From contig CM073323.1 of the NCBI GenBank assembly GCA_037043015.1, forward strand, positions 24,642,758-24,706,757: a stretch of DNA of 64,000 nt, in the 5' to 3' direction. The stretch comes from Bryum argenteum (Eukaryota; Streptophyta; Bryopsida; Bryales; Bryaceae). This document shows positions 323 through 56,602 of the stretch, piece by piece. Below the pieces are notes generated by a model. That model had not been told where the DNA came from. It saw nothing but the letters and a program-made list of their open reading frames with translations, and ran no database searches. The position numbers were made by a program, and so were the translations under genes. Numbering within the stretch: position 1 is the stretch's first letter; every line of letters starts with the position of its first letter.

Positions 323-540
323 CGCCTTCGTTTTCTCTCTTGGCTGCACTCTCCATTAACATTCCATTTCCTCCTTTGTCTTACTACTTCCTTGCTTCAA
401 TCTTATCGTAGCTCTTGTTGCCATATGACACTTTTTCTATTCGACATGCACACCCCTCTTGTGCGCACACATGTGCTCCGGCCACTCGTTTCCGATTTGA
501 GCTCGCTTTTTTGACAACAGATGTGTTCGAAGCCGATTAA

Positions 541-1398
541 CCCCTATAAGCTCCTTGAGTGTTATTGAGAGCTTGCGATTTTCACTCCCGGGGGGTGAAA
601 AAATGATTTTTTGTTTGGTTTTTTCTCCCTTTTTTTGGAACTTCTAAAATTTGACGGTTGGATGTTTATTGTTTGAGAGATCATAACATCCAAAGTTTGT
701 CTTTGAAGTTTTTTTGGAGCATTGTGAATATTGCTTTTGAAATTTTTGGAGGCTACCCTTGTGAAGTTGATGAACTTTTTAACGAGGGTTGTCATAGTGG
801 GCGGACGTCTGGTTCGCCCGATATGCCCAATATGTCCGTCTTATAAAGATCTGCGTCTGCCCGATGTAGTCAACACTTAAATTACCCAATAAAATAATAA
901 TAATATCATAGAGTTGAAGTAAAGTATAAGATAAGGATTTTGTTTGACTATAGATTCACTTTCAAAAAAATTACATGACCCCCAAGAATCACAACATTCG
1001 GTAGTGTGCAGGCCGCCTGCCCCCCTATCTGTTGCGCTCGGCCATTTCGTTTGTCCGATGACCCCTACCGCCCGATATAACAACCCTATTTTTGAATTGG
1101 GTCACTTCGGAGCTTAAGTAGTGATTTGGTCATGAGAAGATTTCCAAAAAAGAAAAAAGAAAAGGAACAAAAAAGACTAAATTTTAACCTCCCAAACTTC
1201 CCTATTTGGGCTTGAAATCAAAGATTTGTATTAAAAAACTCTAAAGTTGGAAGTTCACTTCGCAAATTTTTGCACACACACCTTATAGTATAGGAAACTC
1301 TCACACCAATTTATAGCCCATAATATTACAGTTAGACCCTTCATTTAAGCTGCCCAAATCAACACAAACCCATTTTAGCTCTCAAGGAGCTTTAGGGA
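541..1398. mobile_element. TTAA-bounded non-coding element, family 2, copy 1
   Basis: The element is flanked by TTAA at 537-540 and 1399-1402. Its ends are inverted repeats: the left end begins CCCCTATAAGCTCCTTGAG, and the right end read inward begins TCCCTAAAGCTCCTTGAG, differing by one substitution and one indel. The interior at 590-800 is clearly similar to 57,900-58,090, which lies in another element with the same ends. No coding capacity is seen. A second CCCCTAAA end starts immediately after the right TTAA, at 1403, so two elements may abut. TTAA targets with CCC-starting ends are characteristic of piggyBac-type transposons; that assignment is an inference. Confidence 0.6.
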
Positions 1399-1402
1399 TT
1401 AA

Positions 1403-4851: not shown

Positions 4852-5084
4852 TGTCCATGACCAACATATGGTAGGAAGTACAAAACACCTAAAATCGTCA
4901 CTATGAGCACTTCTGGCATATGATGTAGAGGGTATCGTATGAGAAGTCTTAGTACTAAGACATTATATTCTTGATGACATCAAATTTGATCTACATCATT
5001 TTCAATATTGTATGGTTGAGAACAAATTATCTTTCCTTCATATACATTTATAAAATTTTAAAAAACTCGTGTATCATGATTTAA

Positions 5085-5543
5085 CCCTTAAACACGCCAA
5101 ATGTAGAAAAACAATATTTTGGATGGAAGGCAACAACTTTGACGAGCCACAACTTCTACATCCAAGGTCCATTTTGGATGAAATTACTTGAGTTAGGTTC
5201 TGAATGAAGTCTACTCTGTGTAGTAAAAATTGCAAACTTATACAAATAAGGTATGAATTAATGGCATGCATTTTAGTGGAAACAACTCTTGTTTTTGGGT
5301 TTTGAAGCATGGGGTGTGTTTACCATTGCAAGCCAATCACGTGAAACCAAAAATAGTTATTTATGATTTTATTTATTTATGATCATAATATTGAGATGAT
5401 TTTTACTAGCAACTTTCTAGTTGGAATTTTTTTGACCCAAATACTTTTGCTATTGGATTTGCAATGATGTTTTGTTAATGAAAAAAGTGGAAAAGTGAAT
5501 GATACTTGAAGAGCTATATCTCCTACATCCACTATTGGATTTT

Positions 5544-5588
<45 letters not shown>

Positions 5589-6078
5589 TTTTGAAATGAT
5601 TCCAATCAAATTCTAGTTCAAGTGGTAGAAACCTCAACAAGATCAAAACATTTTGAAGATAAGGCATGAATTTGAGTGCAAATGGTATAGATTTGAATTC
5701 TTTTTCCTCAGTGATTTTTTTGGCGGTTCTCACCATTGCAAGGCTATTATCTGAGACAAGAATTTTTTTGATGATTTTTTTTGGGAAAATTTGCTATTGA
5801 GATGAAGGTAGACAACTTTGTAGTCCGTGATTTTTTGATTGCGATCGGTTTGTTGGTAGAATTTCCAATCTAAAGTGAAAATGATGAAATCTTGCATTCT
5901 GTTTTTAGTACTGATACATTACGATCTTCTTGTGACGTGAAGCAAAATTTAAAAATATTCTCTTTTTGAAATAACGCTCATTGTAATAACCATCAAGCTC
6001 TATTTGAACACAAAAGGCCTACTTTCAAGTATGAGGTTACATCTTCTTTGAAGTATGAGATTTGGAGGACGTTTGAAG
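5085..6078 (+). mobile_element. TTAA-bounded non-coding element, family 1, copy 1 (994 bp)
   Basis: It is flanked by TTAA at 5081-5084 and 6079-6082. The body is collinear with the copies at 18,331-19,322 and 44,101-45,114 (for example the GGCATGCATTTTAGTG and ACCATTGCAAG blocks). It has no open coding frame of note and contains a ~59-bp T-rich tract at 5529-5587. The left end begins CCCTTAAACACGCC, and the right end is degraded (TTTGAAG before TTAA). Lengths of the three plus-oriented copies agree within about 2 percent. Confidence 0.65.
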
Positions 6079-6082
6079 TTAA

Positions 6083-18326: not shown

Positions 18327-18330
18327 TTAA

Positions 18331-19322
18331 TCCATGAACGTCCCTCCCTAATGTCAAAACGACATTTTGGTAGAAACTTTGAAGAGCCATAACATCTTCA
18401 GTGGTCCCGGTTTTGGACAAAATCACTTGGGTTGGGTTACAAAGAGCCATAACATCTTCAGTGGTCCCCGTTTTTGACAAAATCACTCGGGTTGGGTTAC
18501 AAATCAAGTCTAGTTTATATGGGAAAAACCGCAAACTCAGTAATAAAATGTGAATTTATGGCATGCATGTTAGGGAAGGCTGCTCAAGTTTTTGGGTTTT
18601 CAAACATTTGGCATGTTTTACCATTGGTGAGATCAAAAATTGTTTTTCACAAAAGAGAATTTCGTAAGTGTGATATCCAATTGCATTCCAACAACTTCGG
18701 AGTTTGTAGATTTTTGATCCTTTTGTGTTGGATTAGTTTCTTCAAAGAAAAAGTGAAAAAATGGATGATTTTTGAGCAATATCTCCGTCGTTCATCTGTA
18801 GATTTTGACTTAATCTTTTGGGATGGACTCCTATTACAATCTTGTTTTACTATTAGAAACCTTGATCTAAACAAAGATGTAATAAAAATAAGGCATGAAT
18901 TTGAGTGGAAGGGGTCCAGTTTTGGACTGATTTTCCTCTACAGAATGTTTGGCAATTTTCACCATTGCAAGGCTACCATTTGAGCCAAGATATTTCTTTG
19001 ATAAAATTCTTTGGTACAATAGAGTCCTTGAGATGAAGATGAACAACTTTCTAGTTGGTGATTTTCGTATTGCAAATTTCATGTTGGTAGAATTTTCACT
19101 TCAAAGTGGAAATGATGGTTTTTTTGTAGCTTGTTGTGAACTAAAATGTTATGATCTCGCAATGTACAAGGTTTCATGAGGCAAGTTTCGGTCCACATGA
19201 TCTAAAGCAAGTATATTACAAGTTTGTACAATTGAGATTTGAATAGATTATTTTCATTTTCACCCATGACATCGTTTCAAAAATAAACTTTTGGCTAAGA
19301 ATACCCCAAGAACGTATAGAGG
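18331..19322 (+). mobile_element. TTAA-bounded non-coding element, family 1, copy 2 (992 bp)
   Basis: It is flanked by TTAA at 18,327-18,330 and 19,323-19,326 and is collinear with the copies at 5,085 and 44,101. The left end (TCCATGAACG) is diverged from CCCCTAAAC, and the right end read inward starts CCTCTATACG. Near the left end is a 60-bp tandem duplication (18,381-18,440 and 18,441-18,500) starting AAGAGCCATAACATC. Confidence 0.65.
18381..18500 (+). repeat. 60-bp tandem duplication
   Basis: Two units of 60 bp differ at only a few positions. Other copies of the same element have a single unit here, so the duplication is private to this copy. Confidence 0.9.
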
Positions 19323-19326
19323 TTAA

Positions 19327-20079: not shown

Positions 20080-20083
20080 TTAA

Positions 20084-21654
20084 CCCCTAAACATCCCGGC
20101 CTAATTTTAGCCAAAAACCACATGTTCAAAAAAAGTGTCATAGATGGAAATGAAGATGAGTTACTAAGATCTCAACCGTAAAAACTTGTAATACACTTGA
20201 TGAAGATCTTGTCGAACAAAATTTGAGTCATGAAATCCCATAAACCAAGAGAACGGAACGTAATAGTACTAAAACAAACCACAAAATTTCATCATTTTCA
20301 CTTTAGAGTGGAAATTCTAGCAACAAACCAATTGCAATTAAAAAATCACCAACTACAAAGTTGTCCACCTTAATCCTAAATTCCTAATAGCAAATATGCC
20401 CAAAATAATCATCAAAACACTTCTTGGCTCAAAAATTAACCTTGAAATAGAGAAAAGTGCTAAAATTTTTACAAAAGAAAAGTTATTCAAAACTAGAGTC
20501 TTTGCACTCAAATTCATGCGTTCTATTCAATACATTGTTGATCTTGTCAACGACTAAAACTAGACTTTAATTAAAAGCCATTCCAAATATTGAGTTGAAA
20601 TCCAAGAGAGGATGAAGGAGATATAGGTCCTCAAATATCATCCATTTTTCCACTTTTTCCATTGACAAAACATTATTGCAGATCCAGTAGCAAAAGTATT
20701 TTGATAAAAAAACTTCCAACTAGAAAGTTTTTAAGAATCATCTAAAGATTACAATCATGAAAATAAAACGCATAAAAAACTGTATTTGACATGACATAAT
20801 TGGCTTGCAGTGGTAATACATGTTCTATGCTTCCAATGGTAAAACATGCCTATAACGTATTAGTACACAAAACATGCCACAAATCTTCATCATTTTCACT
20901 ATAGAGTAGAATTCCTACCACCAAAGCTACTCCAGTGAAAAAATCTCGAACTATAAAGTTATTCACCTTCATCTCAATATTACTCTTTTACTAAAAGAAA
21001 GATTACCAAAAAACTTTTTTGACTCAAAAATAGCTTCGCAGTGGTGGAAAGTGCCAAAAAATTTACAAAGGGAAAATAGACCAAAACTAAACCCTTTGCA
21101 CTTGAATCCATGCCCCATCTTCAATACATCTTCAATTAGGTTAAGTTTTCTACCACTAAAATTAGAATATGATTAAATTCCATCCCAAAAAATAAAGTTG
21201 GAATCTAATGGTCGATGAAAGAGATAAAGCTCTTTGAATATCATCCATTTTATCGCTTTTTTCATTGTGGGAACATCATTGCAAATCTAATATCAAAAGT
21301 GTTTGGATCAAAAGTCTTCCAGATAGAAAGTTGTTAGATTTCATCTTAATAACATGATCATGTAAAACAAATTTCTTCAAAAACTATTTTTGGTTTCACA
21401 TAATTGTCTTGCAATCGTAACACATGCCTTATGTTTGAAAATCCAAAACCAAAAGCTGCCTTTACAAAAATACATGCCATCGGTTCATACTTTATTGTGT
21501 GGGCTTGAAAATTTTACAACAAAAACTATACTTGATTAAAGATTCAACCCAAATGACTTTGTTCATAACAAAGTCTCAATGAAAAAGATATGACTCTTCA
21601 AAGTTTCTTCCCTTTATTCGAAATGTAGAGAAAGGATATTGGAAACGTATAGGA
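20084..21654 (-). mobile_element. TTAA-bounded element, family 1, inverted and internally duplicated (1.57 kb)
   Basis: Flanking TTAA lies at 20,080-20,083 and 21,655-21,658. The left end on the plus strand starts CCCCTAAACATCCC. The body is the reverse complement of family 1. From about 20,880 the body starts again from the same internal point (TTCATCATTTTCACT...AGAGT...GAAATTC), so most of it is present twice. The other end reads CGTATAGGA before TTAA. No coding frame is seen. Confidence 0.6.
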
Positions 21655-21658
21655 TTAA

Positions 21659-23933: not shown

Positions 23934-26900
23934 TCAAAGATTGATGTCACCCAAGCTCATCAACTTCTCGCAATGATCAACATCGAGGGACTGTAATTGC
24001 TTCAATTCACTCACGTTCTTTGGCAACATCTCCAGGTTCTTACACCATGAAGCATTCAACGTCTTCAAAGCCTCCAAAGATTGAATGTCACCCAAGCTCA
24101 CCAATTTCTCGCACCAACTAACATCGAGGGACTCTAATTGCTTCAATCCACTCATGTTCTCTGGCAACATCTTTAGGTTGTTACACGCTGAAGCACTCAA
24201 CATCTTCAAAGACTCCAAAGATTGAATATCACCAAGGCTCACCAACTTGGAGCATCTACTAACATTGAGGGACTCTAATTGCTTTAATCCACTCATGTTC
24301 TCCGGCAACGTCTTAAGGTTGTTACACCTTGAAGCATTCAACGTCTTCAAAGCCTCCAAAGATTGAATGTCACCCAAACTCACCAACTTGAAGCATCTAC
24401 TAACATGGAGGGATTGTAATTGCTTCAATCCACTCATGTTCTTTGGCAACATCTCCAGGTTGTTACAATTAAAAGCATTCAACGTCTTCAAAGCCTCCAA
24501 AGAGTGAATGTCACCCAAGCTCACCAACGTCTTGCACCAACTAACACGGAGGGACTCTAATTGCTTCAATCCACTCATTTTCTCTGGCAACATCTCTAGG
24601 TTGCTACACCCTGAAGCATTCAACGTCTTCAAAGCCTCCAAAGATTGAATGTCACCCAAGCTCACCAATTCCTCACACCAACTAACATCGAGAGACTCTA
24701 ATTGCTTCAATCCACTCATGTTCTCTGGCAACATCTCTAGGTTGTTACACCCAGCAGCATCCAACTCTTTTAAAGCCTCCAAAGAATGAATGTCACCCAA
24801 GCTCACCAACTTTTTGCACCAACTAACATCGAGGGACTCTAATTGCTTCAATCCACTCATGTTCGCTGGCAACATCTTTAGGTTGTTACACGCTGAAGCA
24901 CTCAACATCTTCAAAGACTCCAAAGATTGAATGTCACCCAAGCTCATCAACTTCTTGCAACAAGCAACATCGAGAGACTCTAATTGCTTCAATCCACTCA
25001 TGTTCTCCGACAACATCTTGAGGTTGTTACACCTTGAAGCATTCAACGCCATCAAAGCCTCCAAAGATTGAATATCACTGAGGCTCACCAACTTGGAGCA
25101 TCTACTAACATTGAGGGACTCTAAGTGCTTTAATCCACTCATGTTCTCTGGCAACGTCTTAAGGTTGTTACACCTTGAAGCATTCAACGTCTTCAAAGCC
25201 TCCAAAGATTGAATGTCACCCAAACTCACCAACTTGAAGCATCTACTAACATTGAGGGATTGTAATTGCTTCAATCCACTCATGTTCTTTGGCAACATCT
25301 CCAGGTTGTTACACCTTGAAGCATTCAACGTCTTCAAAGCCTCCAAAGATTGAATGTCACCCAAGCTCACCAACTTCTCGCACCTATTAACATTGAGGGA
25401 CTCTAATTGCTTCAATCCACTCATTTCCTCTGGCAACATCTCCAAGTTGTTACAATTAAAAGCATTCAACGTCTTCAAAGCCTCCAAAGATTGAATGTCA
25501 CCCAAGCTCACCAACGTCTTGCACCAACTAACAAGGAGGGACTGTAATTGCTTCAATCCACTCATTTTCTCTGGCAACATCTCTAGGTTGCTACACCCTG
25601 GAGCATTCAACGTCTTCAAAGCCTCCAAAGATTGAATGTCACCCAAGCTCACCAACTTTTTGCACCAACTAACATCGAGAGACTCTAATTGCTTCAATCC
25701 ACTCATGTTCTCTGGCAACATCTCTAGGTTGTTACACCCAGCAGCATCCAACTCTTTTAAAGCCTCCAAAGAATGAATGTCACCCAAGCTCACCAACTTT
25801 TTGCACCAACTAACATGGAGGAACTCTAATTGCTTCAATCCACTCATGTTCTCTGGCAACATCTTGAGGTTCTTACACCATGAAGCAATCAACGTCTTCA
25901 AAGCCTCCAAAGACTGAATGTCACCAAAGCTCACCAACTTCTCGCACCTATTAACATTGAGGGACTCTAATTGCTTCAATCCACTCATGTTCTTTGGCAA
26001 CATCTCCAAGTTGTTACACCAAGAAGCATTCAACGTCTTCAAAGCTTCCAAAGATTGAATGTCACTCAAGCTCACCAACTTCTTGTTCCAACTAACATCG
26101 AGGGACTCTAATTGCTTCAATCCACTCATGTTCTTTAGCAACATCTCGAGGTTGTTACAATTTGAAGCATTCAACGTCTTCAAAGCCTCCAAAGATTGAA
26201 TGTCACCCAAGCTCACCAATCTCTCGCACCAACTAACATCGAGGGACTCTAATTGCTTCAATCCACTCATGTTCTTTGGCAACATCTCGAGGTTGTTACA
26301 ATTTGAAGCATTCAATGTCTTCAAAGCCTCCAAAGATTGAATGTCACCTAAGCACATCAACTTCTCGCAACTAGCAACATTGAGGGACTCTAAGTGCTTC
26401 AATCTTGTGATGTTTGCCGGCAACATCTCCAAGTTTTTACATGAACTAGCATCCAACTCTTTTAAAGCCTCCAAAGATTGAATGTCACCCAAGCTCACCA
26501 ATTTCTCGCACCAACTAACATCGAGGGACTCTAATTGCTTCAATCCACTCATTTTCTCTGGCAACATCTCTAGGTTGCTACACCCTGAAGCATTCAACGT
26601 CTTCAAAGCCTCCAAAGATTGAATGTCACCTAAGCACATCAACTTCTCGCAACTAGCAACATTGAGGGACTCTAAGTGCTTCAATCCACTCATGTTCTCC
26701 GGCAACGTCTTAAGGTTGTTACACCTTGAAGCATTCAACGTCTTCAAAGCCTCCAATGATTGAATGTCACCCAAGCTCACCAACATCCCGCAATAACTAA
26801 CATTGAGGGACTCTAATTGCTTCAATCCACTCATGTTCTCTGGCAACATCTCCAAGTTTTCACACCAAGAAACATTCAACGTCTTCAAAGCCTCCAAAGA

Positions 26901-28432
26901 TTGAATGTCACCTAAGCTCACCAACATCCCGCAATAACTAACATTGAGGGACTCTAAATACTTCAATCCACTCATGTTCTCTGGCAACATCTTGAGGTTG
27001 TTACAATTTGAAGCATCCAAAGTCTTCAAAGCCTCCAAAGATTGAATGTCACCCAAGCTCACCAACTTCTCGCACCAACTAACATCGAGGGACTGTAATT
27101 GCTTCAATCCACTCATGTTCTCTGGCAACATCTCCAAGTTTTCACACCAATAAACATTCAACGTCTTCAAAGCCTCCAAAGATTGAATGTCACCTAAACT
27201 CATCAACATCCCGCAATAACTAACTTTGAGGGACTCTAATTGCTTCAATCCACTCATGTTCTCTGGCAACATCTCCAAGTTGTTACACCAAGAAGCATTC
27301 AACGTCTTCAAAGCTTCCAAAGATTGAATGTCACCCAAGCTCACCAACTTCTTGCACGAACTAACATCGAGGGACTCTAAGTGCTTCAATCCACTCATGT
27401 TCGCTGGCAACATCTCCAAGTTCTTACACTTTGAAGCACTCAATGTCTTCAAAGCCTCCAAAGATTGAATGTCACCCAAGCTCATCAACTTCTCGCACCA
27501 ACTAACATCGAGGGACTGTAATTGCTTCAGTCCACTCATTTTCTTTGGCATCATCTGTAGGTTTTTACACCATGAAGTATTCAACGTCTTCAAAGCCTTT
27601 AAAGATTGAATGTCACCTATGCTCACCAATTTCTTGTTCCAACTAACATCCAGGAACTCTAATTTCTTGAACCCTTTGCAATTATTTGGAATCACTTTCA
27701 ATCTCTTGCAGCGTTTACCATTGAACTTCTTCAAGGCCTTCAAGGCTTCAATATCACCAAAGTTCACTAAGTTGTTGCATTCATCAATTTCTAGTTCCTC
27801 CAATTTTTCCAAGCTACTCATGTCTCTTGGTAAATGTTTCAAATTGTCACACTTGTAGACACTTAGCTTTCGTAATGCAGATGCCCCTATAATGCCATCC
27901 AAATTTTCAAGAGCTGAACATTCGTGAATCGTAAGAATTTGGAGTCTCTTAGAACTTTTCAACAGCTCGTGAACAAACGCTCCCCTGCAATTTGATAACT
28001 GAAGAAAATTGAGGTTGTTTAAGTTTTTCACTTGATTAGTTCTCAAATTAAGTCTTGGACAACTTCCAATTTCAAGGCTCCTTAAATTCTCCAAGCTTCT
28101 CACATTCATGTCGACAAGCTCATGACAATTATATAGGTACAAGACTTCCACATTTGAGCAAACCCCAACTTTGCTCGTTCAAAACTCTTCGCTTTACTTG
28201 TGTGAATAATAAGCCTCTCAAGAGAAGACCAACATAATCCCGAAGGTTTTTTTAAGAGCTCAAAAGGAACATCTGCTCCTTCTTTGTTGATGAGATATTT
28301 TCTTTTCTTGAATGCGCCTTCTTTTGCTTGAATTTGAGCAAATTCAATGAATAAATCATGAATATGAATCCATGATAGCTTAGAATAATCATTGTCTGAG
28401 TAAAGAAGTCCATTCCTCTTTAAAGCATTGAC
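23934..28432 (-). CDS. TIR-NB-LRR receptor exon 4: end of NB-ARC and giant LRR domain, with frameshift
   Basis: The exon starts after the acceptor TTTGCAG at 28,433 in phase with exon 3. The first part (VNALKRNGLLYSDNDYSKLS...WIHIHDLFIEFAQ) is the end of the NB-ARC region with an IHD-type variant of the MHD motif. Within ERAK, at 28,170-28,172, the frame shifts by one base. Restoring one A in a run of A's would join it to VGVCSNVEVLYLYNC, which starts the LRRs. The LRR frame then stays open for about 1,400 codons to 23,934. It begins with about 170 residues of ordinary variable LRRs and continues with 26 near-identical double units. It ends early because of a further 1-bp deletion near 23,944. 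The frameshift could be real inactivation or a homopolymer sequencing error. Confidence 0.85.
23942..27640 (-). repeat. 141-bp tandem repeat: 26 double-LRR units
   Basis: Each unit is 47 residues, two plant-type LRRs: MSGLKQLESLDVSWC, then a segment ending LVSLGDIQ, then SLEALKTLNAS, then C-x-NLEMLPEN. I count 26 units in frame, with single-residue differences. Higher-order structure is visible. Units carrying GDIHSLEALKELDAAGC, then GCSNLEMLPEK, then AFNCNNLEML occur in that order twice (units 14-16 and 21-23). They are followed both times by RCFKLV and SASACNNLKML units. A block of about seven units was therefore duplicated and then lost members. Confidence 0.95.
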
Positions 28433-28852
28433 CTGCAAATATACACAAGTACATGTTAAATCATACATTTAATGGCGTATAATTTCAACCTCAAGATTGT
28501 GTAAGACACCTTATGGTAATTTTTATTAACTATTGAAATATTCATTTTTCTGGTTTAAAAAGCTCGTAATTCAAAACACCACCCTAACAATCAAAAGTGG
28601 TTACTAAACAAAATGCAACTTCTACAACCAAGTTCAAGTCTTAGGTTGTGATAGTTGTAAGCAATAAGAAATCCATTTTAAAAACCTTTCTTTACTTAAG
28701 CATTCAATTTTTGAAGCTAAGTATAAAAGAAGTAGTTGTAGGAATACTTGGCTCTACATGTAAACATATTTTGAATGTGTATATCTAAACCAAAAACATT
28801 AATGATTATTCAATCATGATTGAAGTTTCTTCAATCAAAATGAATTACTTAC

Positions 28853-29530
28853 ACAATCTTTCATCTCTTTTTCTGTCTTCCTATGGAATATGCACATCCA
28901 ATCCCACATGTACTTAAATTCAGACCCCCAACTTCTCCATTGGGGTGTCCATAAGAGTGCCAAGTCCAAAAATATGTCTTGATCTTCCAAGCATAATGTA
29001 TCAAACCCGAGTCGTAAAATAGTGAATATAGGATGGTTTTTCTCCCTTAACACATTGAATCTTTCAACATTCAACTTCTCCAAATATTTCACCACTGACA
29101 GTTTTGATTCCTGCCCTTGAGATATAGCTCTTTGCAATTGACTCCCCAAAACTTTGAGCGCTAATGGTACATACTGTTTCTCTAACTTCGTGTTACACTT
29201 CGAGTCAAGACTTCCTCCCTTTGGAAAGCAACATTTTGCCACATACTCCTTCAAAATGTTATCTTTCTGATTGAACATGGTTCCAAGGTAGTAAGAAAGT
29301 ACCGCAAGTGCGGAAGTATCATCCAATGGTGGCATTTCCATGCAATTACTTTCATCAATATGAAGTTGAAATAATATATCTTTAGATCGTGAGGTAATAA
29401 GAACCACACTCTTATCGTCATATTGGATGTCCAAGTATTTCTTCACTTCTGGAACTTGGTCACTCTGTACATTGTCTAGTACAAGTAATACACTTTGTTT
29501 TCTCATGCATTTCTTCAAAAGGTCATATAG
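28853..29530 (-). CDS. TIR-NB-LRR receptor exon 3: NB-ARC, kinase-2 to winged-helix part
   Basis: The acceptor is TTTGACAG at 29,531 and the donor TGT|GTAAGT at 28,852; 226 codons, phase 0 at both ends. It contains kinase-2 (VLLVLDNV), an RNBS-B-like motif (VVLITSRSKDIL) and a GLPLAL equivalent (YVPLALKVLGSQL). An RNBS-D-like segment (LCLEDQDIFLDLALLW) follows. The D-N-V at kinase 2 and absence of a CC-type RNBS-D fit the TIR class. This region would bind and exchange ADP/ATP as the receptor's switch. Confidence 0.9.
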
Positions 29531-29877
29531 CTGTCAAATTAGCATTCCACATGTCAAAACCTAAGCTGATCAACCTACAATCATCCTCAATCATATCAAT
29601 TAATTCTTGAAATCAATACTAAACTCATCCATACCTTTACAACTAGCAACTACCACATGCACAACCGCTACATTTTAAACTTTGAGATTCAATCAATCGA
29701 CAAGATGAAAACAAAATTAACCTTCAAAGGTTTAAAAGAAGTCACCACAAAAACTTTATTATTTACCTTACAGATATTATACTTAAGGTTTCCAAATATA
29801 CAATATAACCAAAATCCTAATGTCATCAGAATCACATCAAAATCATAATTACATCAAAATTACATCAGAATCATCAC

Positions 29878-30129
29878 CTTGCCATGATGCTTCTCGATGG
29901 TTGTTGAATCTTCATAAGTCAAGTCTTTAAGTATCAATTTTTCCACTTCCACATAATTGATGTGCCCCAACTCAATATGGGATACTCTCCCACCATATTC
30001 CCCAAATTTTTCATTGCAGATTGCTCTTGAGATGGTTGTTTTACCAATTCCTCCCATACCATGTAGACCCATCACTTTCACCTCAAGTCTAGAAGTTGGT
30101 ACAATATTCTTCATTTTTTGCAATATTGG
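29878..30129 (-). CDS. TIR-NB-LRR receptor exon 2: P-loop
   Basis: 84 codons between the acceptor GTGATAG (30,130) and the donor AAG|GTGAT (29,877), phase 0 at both sides. It contains the Walker A motif GMGGIGKTT, then AICNEKFGEYGGRVSHIEL. The exon joins FLCK of exon 1 to LYDLLKK of exon 3. Confidence 0.9.
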
Positions 30130-30333
30130 CTATCACACACTCAAGCATGATGGAACTTAGTAAGACCTCAAAAGCATCATATCTTTAATACATTCATATT
30201 CTAACATAATAACCAAGAAACTAACAACACTTTATAATTTAACTTCATTCTCGCGAACGTACTCCAAGAAATTAAGAATAATAATTGAACCATCTAAGAA
30301 TAACTCATAAAACACCTATGAGGAAAAACTCAC

Positions 30334-31092
30334 CTTACACAAAAATTGAATTGATTGATTGTCAGGAACATTAAATTTTACATTCGGTTCCACCAACTTA
30401 CAAATTGCGTCCACCACTTTCTTGATAAAGATTTCCCATCCCTTTGTGTTACAATAAGTCATGGAATTGTTTTTCTTGATTACAGATAATGCTTTCTCCC
30501 ATTCATCCAAGTCAATCCTCTTGTCACTTTCTCTCCATTTCTTCCATTTCTCAAGCCACCTTGATTTACTTTTATTGAATTGCTCAAATGTTGTATCCAC
30601 ATACAGAGGCAACACTTTCAAATTGGGATTTGATGTCTCTTGTGCCTTAGCAAACTCGTTCAACTCCATCATTGGCCACTTCGAATTAAGGAAGAAATCA
30701 TCTGACAACACCACAATAGCAACTCTACATTGCTTAGCAGCATCCATCATAGTGTTGAACCATCTCTCACCCTTGGGTAAACTCTGATCGGATTCATCAA
30801 AGAATGGTGAGTATTGAGCATGTTTCAAGGCATTAAATAAAATCCTTGTGAACTCCTTTTGTTTTCCACTATGGCTTAAGAAGATTGTATGCTTCGGCTC
30901 CCATTGCACAATCGGCACCACTTGCTCATTGAGAAAGCCCACTTCGCCCAACCCCAATACATCTTTTTTACTCGACTCCAAATTGCTTGTGTTCTGTTCT
31001 CTTTCAACGGGTGACTGCAAGCGCTCTTTGAGGTGATGAAACAATAGTACCAGTAGGGCAAGGTCAAATCCGGTAGCAACCTCACCAACCAT
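30334..31092 (-). CDS. TIR-NB-LRR receptor exon 1: TIR domain
   Basis: Starts at ATG 31,092 (MVGEVATGFDLALL) and ends at the donor AAG|GTGAGT (30,333); 253 codons. Residues about 1-60 are an N-terminal extension with a short leucine-rich segment. The TIR domain is at about 68-200: HTIFLSHSGKQKEF, FFDESDQSLPKGERW, CRVAIVVLSDDFFLNSKW, then MMELNEF carrying the glutamate equivalent to the catalytic Glu of TIR NADases. TIR domains of plant receptors cleave NAD+ to signalling molecules after receptor assembly. This exon shows no disabling mutation. Because the locus is broken downstream, it could still yield a TIR-NB product. Confidence 0.9.
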
Positions 31093-32937
31093 TGCTACTC
31101 TTCAATAGCTTCGTCCCCTGCAACATACGCACTCTCAGCAAAAGAAGCCTTTTTCATGTCCATATCTTTACCAACTCCTAAACCACATAATCCACAGCCA
31201 TAACTTGTCATGATGTACACATATCCACCGAGAAATAATACATGTCAATGACAGGAAAGGAACAAGTGACCGAATGTATGACACAGGACGCAACCTCCAA
31301 GCTTTTACTTACAAGATCGAATTCTCCACAGCCTGCCGAATACCAGAGCGGACTCCGTGAAGAGTAGAAGACTCCACGGCGCGCACCTCTGCAACTTCAG
31401 AGCACGGAGGCCAGCAGACTCCCCCAATTACTGTTGGACTGACTGGTCGCAGGATCTGCAAGTGCGGTAAGTGATCTGGCCTGTGGCTCCCAAACTGATA
31501 CTCGATTGTAGTACTAGCGACCTCCTTGAAGCCTCACCGCATGGCCCAGGGGATGGAGGAGACGGATGGAGCGCCTCTCGTGTTAGAGAAGCTGTGAGAA
31601 TGTGACTCTAGCGACAGAAGATGCTCGGTCACGTTTCTTAAGGTGATGGCGATTTGCAAGCACTACATGTGTTACCAAATGAAACACAGCACTATACAAC
31701 CTCACGGTGGGCCTCCCTCAGAGATTAGTCACCAGCAAAGACTACTTGCCACTTTGCGACCCAAGGAATCCTTCTCACAGCCCAGGCTACACAATCTCTC
31801 TAGTTCGAACACACGAGTACACAATACACTGATCCGTGATGGACATTGAACCGGCAGACTGCTCCGATTACCGCTCTATCTCCTTCCCTTCCTGAGCAGA
31901 CACAACAATGAGCCCAGACAGACGTGAGACCGCCAGAATCAGGCCTTCTTGCTCTACCATTCGGAAGCGAAGCGACTAGACCCACTGTCCGGACATGCAG
32001 CCTGACCACCAAGCCCACTCGCACGAGACTGTTCAATGCCGCATACAGTCTGTAGGTTAAGTTACTGTACCATCAAGTCTACAATTTCGAGGTCTGTCAC
32101 AGCCTGGCGTGGGGCTGGCATGGGCCCGGGATGATGCGGCATCACCGTCCATTGAATCAGCACCGTCCAGGTTCGTCATCTGGACGTCCCCCGACGACTT
32201 CAAGGGCTTTGTTCACGTGGGAAGACTGCTCCTCGGCATGATTTCGTGCGCACGATGGAAAAGAGTGACTATTTTATAATCACAAGACCGACTAAGTAAA
32301 CCGCTTGAGTAAAACAAAATTGACGATCAGCTGCAGTACTGTAGTCAAGACGACTGTGGGTGCCTACTGTAGTGACGAGGAGCAGACTCAACAGTACAGT
32401 AGAAGAGTTTTCGTTGTGGATGGTTCCTCGTTGTCACTACAGTAGCTTGTTCCCACCAGTGTTGTGCAAGGATATCGTTGGATTAGAAGATTTGAGAGTC
32501 TGTATCTGTCCCAGGGGTATCTGAAATCTAAAACCATGCTATATTTTTGGTACTTTTGGTGAATATCTTTCGATCCTTGGTTCCTACACAGCCTCTTGGA
32601 GGAGTAAGGTAGCCTACTCATAAAGGAATAATACTCAAGGTAGCCTGTCTCACTAGACCTTGAACACAGAGGTACATAACAACTTCAAAGTTCAATCCTC
32701 CATGTACGGAGGTGAACATTTCAGGGTATTATCTTTTCAGTCCAGCTGAAAAAAAAATTAATAACAAAACTGCAGGAAAGTCTAGAATTGATGATTCCAC
32801 TTGGTCTAAAAATGCTCAAACGGGTAACTCCGTTGCACAATTTATTGCATTGAAATTCAGTAATCCACCTTTCAGGTCTGCACTTCTGCAGCGTTTCATA
32901 AGCATAGAATTCAGTTTGCTTGCACCGACCTTTTAAT
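31093..32937. other. Upstream region of the receptor gene, relatively GC-rich
   Basis: From about 31,300 to 32,260 the base composition is clearly richer in GC than the surroundings. I see no convincing exon. It probably includes the receptor's promoter and 5' leader. A strong hairpin is at 32,364-32,445. Confidence 0.4.
32364..32445. repeat. Inverted repeat, 17-bp stem
   Basis: CTACTGTAGTGACGAGG at 32,364-32,380 pairs with 32,426-32,445, with a two-base bulge; the loop is about 45 bases. It could be the core of a small MITE or a transcript hairpin. Confidence 0.7.
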
Positions 32938-44096: not shown

Positions 44097-44100
44097 TTAA

Positions 44101-45114
44101 CCCCTAAACCTCTTTCATGCCGAGAAACAACATTTTGGATGAAGGACAGAAAATTTGAAGAGCCATAACTTCTTCCTCAAGAGTCTTCTTTTGAAAAAGT
44201 CACTTGGGATGGTCCCAAATCAAGTCTATTTTGAGGGATAAAAATTGCAGACCCATCCAAAAAACTATGAGTTTATGGCATGCATTTTAGTGAAGGCAGC
44301 TTTTGTTTTTGGTTTTTCAATCATGGGTCGTGTTTTACCATTGCAAGCCAATTATTTGAAATCAAAAATAGTTTTTCGTGAATTTATTTTACATAAGTAT
44401 GATCTTAAGATGAAATCCAACAACTTTGTAGTTGAAAGATTTTTGATTCACATATTTTGGTGTTAGGTTTGCAATGATGTTTCTCGAACAAAAAAAGGGA
44501 AAAAATATATGATTTCTAAAGAGCTATATCTCCTTTTTTGGGATGGATTCCAATTACAGTCTAATTTTAGTGGTAGAATCCTTGACTAAATCAAAGATTT
44601 TTTGAAGATAAGGCATAAATTTAAGTGCAAAGGTTGTAGTTTTGAACTAATTTACCTTTGTAATATTTTGGCAGGATTCACCATTGCAAGGCTATTATTT
44701 GAGCAAAGAATTTTTTTTAATGAATTTTTTTGGTTCAAGGCTAATATTGAGATGAAGGTGAATAACTTTTGAGTTGGAGATTTTTTCATTGTGGTAGCTA
44801 TGTTGGTAGAATTTCCACTCTAAAGTGAAAATGATGAAATTTTGTAGTTTATTTTCTCAGTCTATTTTGAGTACTAACACATTCTGATCTCACAATGTAT
44901 AAGGCTTCATGACCTAAATTTTGCTTCACGTGACCTACAACAAGTGTACTACAAGATTTTACAGTTGGGATTTAAACAACTTACATTCATTTTTATCGAA
45001 CCAAAAAGGTGTGCAGAGACTCCTCGGGCTATCCCAATTCAACCGCATCTACATCAAAAAACTTTCTTTTGAACATATGTTTTTAAGCCAAAAATAGCCA
45101 AGGACGATTAGGGG
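44101..45114 (+). mobile_element. TTAA-bounded non-coding element, family 1, copy 3 (1,014 bp)
   Basis: Left flank TTAA at 44,097-44,100, then CCCCTAAACCTC. The right end is GGACGATTAGGGG, followed by TTCA (one change from TTAA) at 45,115-45,118. The ends are short inverted repeats (CCCCTAA on both). The body is collinear with copies 1 and 2. It lies inside the CACTA element, so it inserted later or travelled with it. Confidence 0.65.
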
Positions 45115-45118
45115 TTCA

Positions 45119-56332: not shown

Positions 56333-56336
56333 TTAA

Positions 56337-56598
56337 CCCCTAAAACGACCACGGCCACCGATTCGGCTTTTACGGTCAAGGCCAAAAAAAATTTATAGTC
56401 AACTTCAAATGTTATAATCTCACATCCTGTGATGATTCAACGGTTGAAAATTTTCACACTACTACCTATGGTAGTCTACTTCAAGATCATACGGTTGAAG
56501 TTATGAAAAATTTCCAAAAATGTTGGACGTACCCGCATTAGTACATAGTGGTCATTGTTGGGATTTCAAGCTCCCAAAACATCGTAGATCTTTAGGGG
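56337..56598. mobile_element. Short TTAA-bounded element (262 bp)
   Basis: Perfect 12-bp inverted repeat TTAACCCCTAAA at 56,333-56,344 and 56,591-56,602. The TTAA on each side can be read as the target duplication and CCCCTAAA as the terminal repeat. It is non-coding. Its interior does not obviously match families 1 or 2. Confidence 0.55.
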
Positions 56599-56602
56599 TT
56601 AA

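Follow-up and report, generated by a model that had tools for sequence, protein, structure and literature searches.

We analysed a stretch of 64,000 nucleotides (the window; C3:24642758-24706757) from the genome of the land plant Bryum argenteum, and searched this genome over 258.8 Mb in 25 contigs, ten of them of 17–44 Mb, with the eleventh measuring 6.5 Mb or more. The window holds several copies of a stretch of about 1 kb that is bounded by TTAA. We conclude that these stretches are very probably non-autonomous, MITE-like DNA transposons of the piggyBac type, which move by cut and paste. The initial annotation had proposed the piggyBac superfamily from the ends of the copies, and this assignment is now well supported by the TTAA target, by ends that start with CCC and by PF13843, the transposase domain of piggyBac, for which the genome gave 116 scored matches. 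The link between these ends and a piggyBac enzyme is a probable one, drawn from the target, the termini and the presence of the enzyme in the genome. Elements of this kind are already known; the host, the abundance and the youth of the copies are the surprising part.

Three plus-oriented copies in the window (c1, c2 and c3; Table 1) are collinear and of near-equal length, as initially described, and their pairwise identity lies between 63 and 71% (0.631 for c1/c2, 0.708 for c1/c3 and 0.707 for c2/c3), with BLAST E-values of 3e-64 to 4e-126 among the window copies. Direct reading of the junctions bore out the reported TTAA bounds at each copy and the single right flank changed to TTCA. On the left, the junctions read TTAA followed by CCCTTAAACACG in c1, by TCCATGAACGTC in c2 and by CCCCTAAACCTC in c3; on the right, GTTTGAAG (c1) and GTATAGAGG (c2) are followed by TTAA, and GATTAGGGG (c3) by TTCA. 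The minus-strand copy runs, in element orientation, from TTAATCCTATACG to ATGTTTAGGGGTTAA, and was recovered in two BLAST pieces because of its internal duplication. Allowing up to two mismatches to TTAACCCCTAAACG, we counted 12 matches in the window, where 15 Markov-1 random sequences averaged 0.47; at up to three mismatches there were 19 against 4.7, and at up to four mismatches there was no excess (49 in the window, 44.6 in random sequences). The alignment of c1 and c3 with their flanks extends about 25 bp beyond the left TTAA (5053/44074), into A-rich sequence, and the score of the two 30-bp left flanks was equalled by 1% of random 30-bp window pairs. We take this likeness as chance, because the sequence is A-rich, because it concerns one of six flank comparisons and because no such extension is seen in the genome copies. 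The TTCA end of c3 is common to its relative L002, which is 97% identical to it and whose flanks are also alike (98.7%); the two therefore belong to one duplicated segment and do not represent two insertions. As the window copies are degenerate, the ends were defined from young copies elsewhere in the genome. The tandem 62-bp stretch of c2 is 95% identical between its units, a duplication that looks far younger than the element itself.

Table 1. TTAA-associated elements in the window (positions count from its first letter; lengths of c1, c2 and c3 include the tetranucleotides at both ends)
Feature	Position	Strand	Length (bp)	Remarks
Copy c1	5081..6082	+	1002	TTAA at both ends; right terminal repeat degenerate; long internal T tract
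Copy c2	18327..19326	+	1000	TTAA at both ends; 62-bp tandem repeat at 18382-18503
Minus-strand copy	20080..21658	-	1579	Element orientation TTAATCCTATACGTTTCC to GGGATGTTTAGGGGTTAA; internal segment of ~0.6 kb present twice
Copy c3	44097..45118	+	1022	Best-preserved ends, CCCCTAAAC / GATTAGGGG; right TTAA changed to TTCA
270-bp element of another family	56333..56602		270	Both ends TTAACCCCTAAA; 84% identity with the 270-bp elements of L063 and L068
Probable 866-bp element	537..1402		866	Degenerate ends TTAACCCCTATAAGCTCCTTGAG / TTAATCCCTAAAGCTCCTTGAG; right TTAA common with the end of another element at 1399

With c3 as the query, at least 52 matches were found genome-wide. We examined 26 further copies from 27 loci, one of which holds two copies; L026 and L027 were excluded, each having one end off the end pattern, and L001 corresponds to c3. 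The copies were partly picked by a pattern that demands TTAACCC-like ends, the unbiased test being the comparison of first bases with VTAACCCCTAAACG given below, and L002 (with c3) and L003–L006 lie in duplicated segments, so the independent insertions number fewer than 26. The genome copies are about 980 bp long (958–1004 bp, or 958–1022 bp over 29 copies) and are bounded by TTAACCCCTAAACG...CGTTTAGGGGTTAA or near variants: the left end mostly reads TTAACCCCTAAACG(T/C) or TTAACCCTTAAACG and the right end is the inverse, a few copies having one or two changes. Seventeen copies form one family with a 981-bp consensus, to which nine are 99.4–99.9% identical, one 98.0% and seven 92–93%. The nine near-consensus copies indicate that at least one lineage amplified recently. 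In L021, an internal duplication of the 980-bp element was observed (1276-1352 and 1647-1723; 77 nt, 73% identical, spacing 371). Considering also the larger one in the minus-strand copy of the window, growth through internal duplication seems to recur.

We analysed the borders of the copies by comparing their flanks. Over 20 columns on each side of 23 genome copies and c1–c3, no column had more than 14 of 26 equal bases; L004–L006 were left out of this test, their flanks being the same as those of L003. The alignment of L003 with L008 stops within 1–2 bp of the TTAA borders. The genome copies examined end at TTAA and have unrelated flanks, save where they lie within larger duplicated segments (L002 with c3; L003–L006) or beside an adjoining element; the flanks of L019 and L023 share a 70-bp stretch some bases off the element end. 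The flanks of L003, joined at one TTAA, were run against the genome. The one empty site examined, a paralogue of the L003 site at C10:14756450-14756853, has a single TTAA and is identical at 389 of 404 positions, with no gaps. Since TTAA is palindromic, a TA or TWA duplication could mimic it, and we therefore tested whether the outermost T varies. The end TTAACCCCTAAACG occurs 3,260 times genome-wide against 3 for its reversed control, whereas the same end with another first base, VTAACCCCTAAACG, occurs 104 times against 118 for its control. The outermost base is T in 3,260 of 3,364 ends, and the remaining 104 are at the control level. The target is strictly TTAA, with a 4-bp duplication; neither a TWA target (PIF/Harbinger) nor a TA target (Tc1/mariner, Stowaway-like) is seen, the outermost T varying at the control level only. 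Whether TTAA might instead belong to the terminal repeat, a doubt raised at the outset, is largely settled by the empty site together with this first-base test. In addition, abutting elements share one TTAA at seven places (L016, L014, L008, L071, twice in L078, and 1399-1402 in the window), which is what repeated insertion would give.

In the young consensus, the terminal inverted repeat measures 17 bp with TTAA (TTAACCCCTAAACGTCC on both sides) and 13 bp without it (CCCCTAAACGTCC), the repeat expected of piggyBac being about 12–19 bp; a repeat-arm computation on the element gave 24-nt arms of 88% identity. The young terminal motif is CCCCTAAACG, and the young families begin with CCC and finish with GGG. 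The fourth terminal base is C (CCCC) in the main family, as against T in the published CC[C/T]T; c1, the L003–L008 subfamily and the TTAACCCTGG family have CCCT. In most genome copies the left end is adjoined by a short palindrome (TGTCGAAAAACGACA, with slight variation), after which comes TTTTGGATG; in many copies the left subterminal sequence reads TGTCG-A5/T5-CGACATTTTGGATG. The 434-bp family described below has the mirror of this palindrome, TGTCGTTTTTCGACA, at one of its ends, which makes the palindrome a candidate transposase site. Two reading frames of 77–102 aa were found in several subfamilies, each at a similar place. We propose no protein for these frames, since their amino-acid identity between subfamilies in the plus frame (0.47–0.75, reaching 0.9 only within two close pairs) is lower than the nucleotide identity, and since each of the two is shortened or absent in some copies. 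The ~1-kb element has no evident gene and appears non-coding, a small protein being unlikely. Its homogeneous length, its terminal repeats and the thousands of ends are those of a MITE, for which 980 bp is long.

The same ends are carried by other elements. Across the genome, we counted the 12-base core TTAACCCCTAAA 14,192 times and its reversed control 172 times, and elements of about 80, 270, 434, 936 and 980 bp were found at the loci read. The 80-bp elements and one end of the 434-bp elements carry variants such as TTAACCCTTAA, and the spacing of the listed ends suggests a further family of about 1,315 bp. Related ends, TTAACCCTGGAACGTCGGAGC, bound a 746-bp family (212 exact ends to a pattern with T or C after ACG). 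L034, L036 and L046 have the ends of the ~1-kb element, yet no match to the 980-bp set. The end types TTAACCCCTAAA, TTAACCCTTAAACG and TTAACCCTGGAACG coexist, and several families of unlike interior have one terminal motif in common.

The transposase of IFP2-type piggyBac elements carries the DDE_Tnp_1_7 domain. Searching the same genome with the corresponding profile (PF13843), as proposed initially, brought out a large set: 775 first-look candidates were obtained, 116 were scored and all 116 are above the Pfam cut-off. Matches lie, for example, at C1:23341202-23342323 and C3:13767352-13768539. The best match (281.6 bits, E = 7.4e-82) spans positions 1 to 349 of the domain; 93 of the 116 have no stop inside the match, and the open frames around the matches measure 447–1331 aa. 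Six matches (C1:24627430, C2:2426161, C2:9109846, C4:13758654, C8:13523609 and C9:4435876) have an identical score of 258.4 bits, which suggests near-identical copies. The profile gave no match in 14 control genomes, a weak control, the only one identified being a bacterium. A Pfam scan of 30 of the longer frames, 10 from the window and 20 from the loci, found no piggyBac domain. We assessed the proximity of ends to transposases with 60 of the 116 scored matches, 55 of which fall in the range covered by the listed ends (the 14-mer on C1, the ACGACCAHG subset on C1–C2 and the TTAACCCTGG type up to 20.3 Mb of C4). Two of the 60 listed matches on C1–C4 have a listed element end within 6 kb, which is at chance: random placement of the 55 matches in the covered range gives a mean of 1.28 and a probability of 0.37 for two or more. 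Both nearby ends face inward and precede the start of the domain by 4071 and 4077 bp; these near-equal distances are suggestive, but the two end sequences differ (TTAACCCCTAAACGACCATG and TTAACCCTGGAACGTCGGAGC). By eye, the 26 TTAACCCTTAAACGCG ends are all more than 10 kb away from the listed transposase matches, and no further transposase match stands beside the TTAACCCTGG ends, listed on to the start of C5.

Longer candidates were examined and rejected. On C1, the ends of the 14.2-kb pair (L029/L030) match the two parts of a single 980-bp copy, which looks as though an insertion had split it. In the 8.3-kb and 10.4-kb pairs on C2 (L060–L062), at least one end has a nearer partner, with which it bounds an element of 936 or 270 bp. 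A repeated element of more than 7 kb that has long frames (L063, L068, L070 and L073) was rejected as the autonomous partner, being hAT-like and holding a 270-bp MITE. Its copies are 92–97% identical, with the 270-bp TTAA MITE at the same place in each; a hAT dimerisation domain was found in frames of L068 and L073, and L068 also has a RING-H2 finger frame.

Other superfamilies could produce elements of this appearance. If they were MITEs of PIF/Harbinger (TWA) or Tc1/mariner (TA) type, their target would read as TTAA through an overlap with a palindrome, and direct repeats alone do not fix the length of a target; moreover, DDE_Tnp_4 transposases, which we take to belong to PIF/Harbinger elements with TWA targets, are abundant in the genome (PF13359; 420 candidates, of which 150 were scored). 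With a TA or TWA target, however, the outermost base would be free to vary, and the first-base test found it to be T apart from a remainder at the control level. By eye, the 14 listed DDE_Tnp_4 matches on C1 all lie more than 5 kb from the listed ends of that contig, the nearest at about 8.6 kb, and the end that does stand near a DDE_Tnp_4 frame, in L059, is that of a separate 269-bp element. We consider such an origin very unlikely. The elements might also be driven by some other TTAA-specific transposase that is absent from Pfam, such as Sola3, with the piggyBac genes as unrelated passengers. The chance-level proximity of ends and piggyBac genes would be compatible with this, as would the coexistence of several end types. 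Against it, piggyBac, the sole TTAA-specific transposase family searched for, is abundant in the genome, and the end motif is close to the piggyBac hallmark published in the available part of PMC2872659; this explanation is, in our judgement, an improbable one. Kolobok-type elements, the other well-known superfamily that duplicates TTAA, agree with the target duplication observed here, but their termini are given as 5'-RR...YY-3' against the CCC...GGG of the young families, and the plant hosts named for them in the part of the source available are algae (PMC9587614). We hold a Kolobok origin to be exceedingly unlikely.

According to the preferred piggyBac reading, piggyBac-type transposases of the same genome would act in trans on the ends of the MITEs, probably recognizing the short terminal repeat together with the adjoining stretch. 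The elements would be excised and then pasted into new TTAA sites, and the system may have been active recently. We also lean towards the broader proposition that piggyBac is native to this land plant, where it would have radiated, been recently active and become a dominant type of DNA transposon; the system would comprise 93 or more uninterrupted domains, out of the 116 scored, together with MITE ends in the thousands.

The distribution of these sequences over the genome is uneven. The largest contig, C1 (44.1 Mb), is strongly depleted: its 98 TTAACCCCTAAACG ends amount to 2.2 per Mb, whereas the rest of the genome has 14.7 per Mb. It makes up 17% of the genome, yet has 5 of the 116 scored piggyBac and 14 of the 150 scored DDE_Tnp_4 matches. 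C1 could be a sex chromosome or have otherwise different chromatin. Many uninterrupted frames of more than 450 aa are found among the 420 first-look candidates for DDE_Tnp_4, which is of PIF/Harbinger type. On its minus strand, the window itself probably carries a TIR-NB-ARC-LRR resistance gene in the region 23934-31101, where one LRR frame is uninterrupted over 1414 aa; the match to NB-ARC is below the Pfam cut-off. In the window, the Pfam scan also returned a 2OG dioxygenase frame, and an Rfam search gave no match. At L075, a PsbO frame matches best the PDB chain 8c29_O (408 bits), which we take to be from Norway spruce, and then 3jcu, 5xnl and 9i4t (392–393 bits), presumably from spinach, pea and Arabidopsis; together with the contig sizes, this order hints at a bryophyte, perhaps a moss, more than at a flowering plant.

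PiggyBac, whose enzymes are best known from animals, is a workhorse of animal genome engineering, and plant papers, in the parts of them available, treat it as an imported tool (PMC10794571, PMC5505980): a plant review places PiggyBac among the class II superfamilies and elsewhere treats it as a tool (PMC10794571), and a Physcomitrella paper of 2017 describes the piggyBac system as yet to be tried there (PMC5505980). The available part of a bee paper states that piggyBac has been identified in plants (PMC10140906). Among the matches listed by our literature search, which mostly covered papers outside subscription, no title dealt with piggyBac elements native to a land plant or with TTAA MITEs in one, an absence that is unproven; in the part available of one moss paper, the search term matches the word "piggybacking" alone (PMC10619864). 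If our conclusion is true, Bryum argenteum would offer a natural model of how a TTAA transposon is amplified and silenced and how MITE families form in plants, a source of plant-adapted transposases for a plant-born piggyBac toolkit, and a test case for whether this lineage inherited piggyBac or acquired it horizontally. From the strictness of the TTAA target and the common terminal motif, annotators also obtain a rule for classing otherwise unknown repeats.

The elements resemble known systems in several respects. CC[C/T]T termini and TTAA are the hallmarks of piggyBac, and piggyBac MITEs with such termini are known in corals, as described in the available part of PMC2872659. Like the CMITEs of Acropora reported there, the elements analysed here have a TTAA duplication, short terminal repeats starting with CC, abutting copies, filled and empty loci, interiors common across families and a piggyBac-type transposase in the genome (PMC2872659). 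Unlike these CMITEs, which are about 100 bp long (PMC2872659), the main family measures 980 bp and the others between 80 and about 1,300 bp; they live in a plant, and their young terminal motif is CCCCTAAACG. The T2-MITEs of Xenopus and other Kolobok elements share with them TTAA duplications and long-lived MITE subfamilies, but their termini, so far as the available parts of the two sources describe them, start with purines (RR...YY; AGGRR in the Xenopus T2 MITE, PMC6004289), as against CCCC...GGGG here (PMC6004289, PMC9587614). With the piggyBac (IFP2) of Trichoplusia ni and its relatives in bees, as presented in the available part of PMC10140906, they have in common the TTAA target and terminal repeats of about 14 bp. 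Those elements, however, are about 2.2–3.5 kb long and encode a transposase (PMC10140906), whereas the elements described here have no evident gene, and the frames around the transposase domain in this plant reach 1331 aa.
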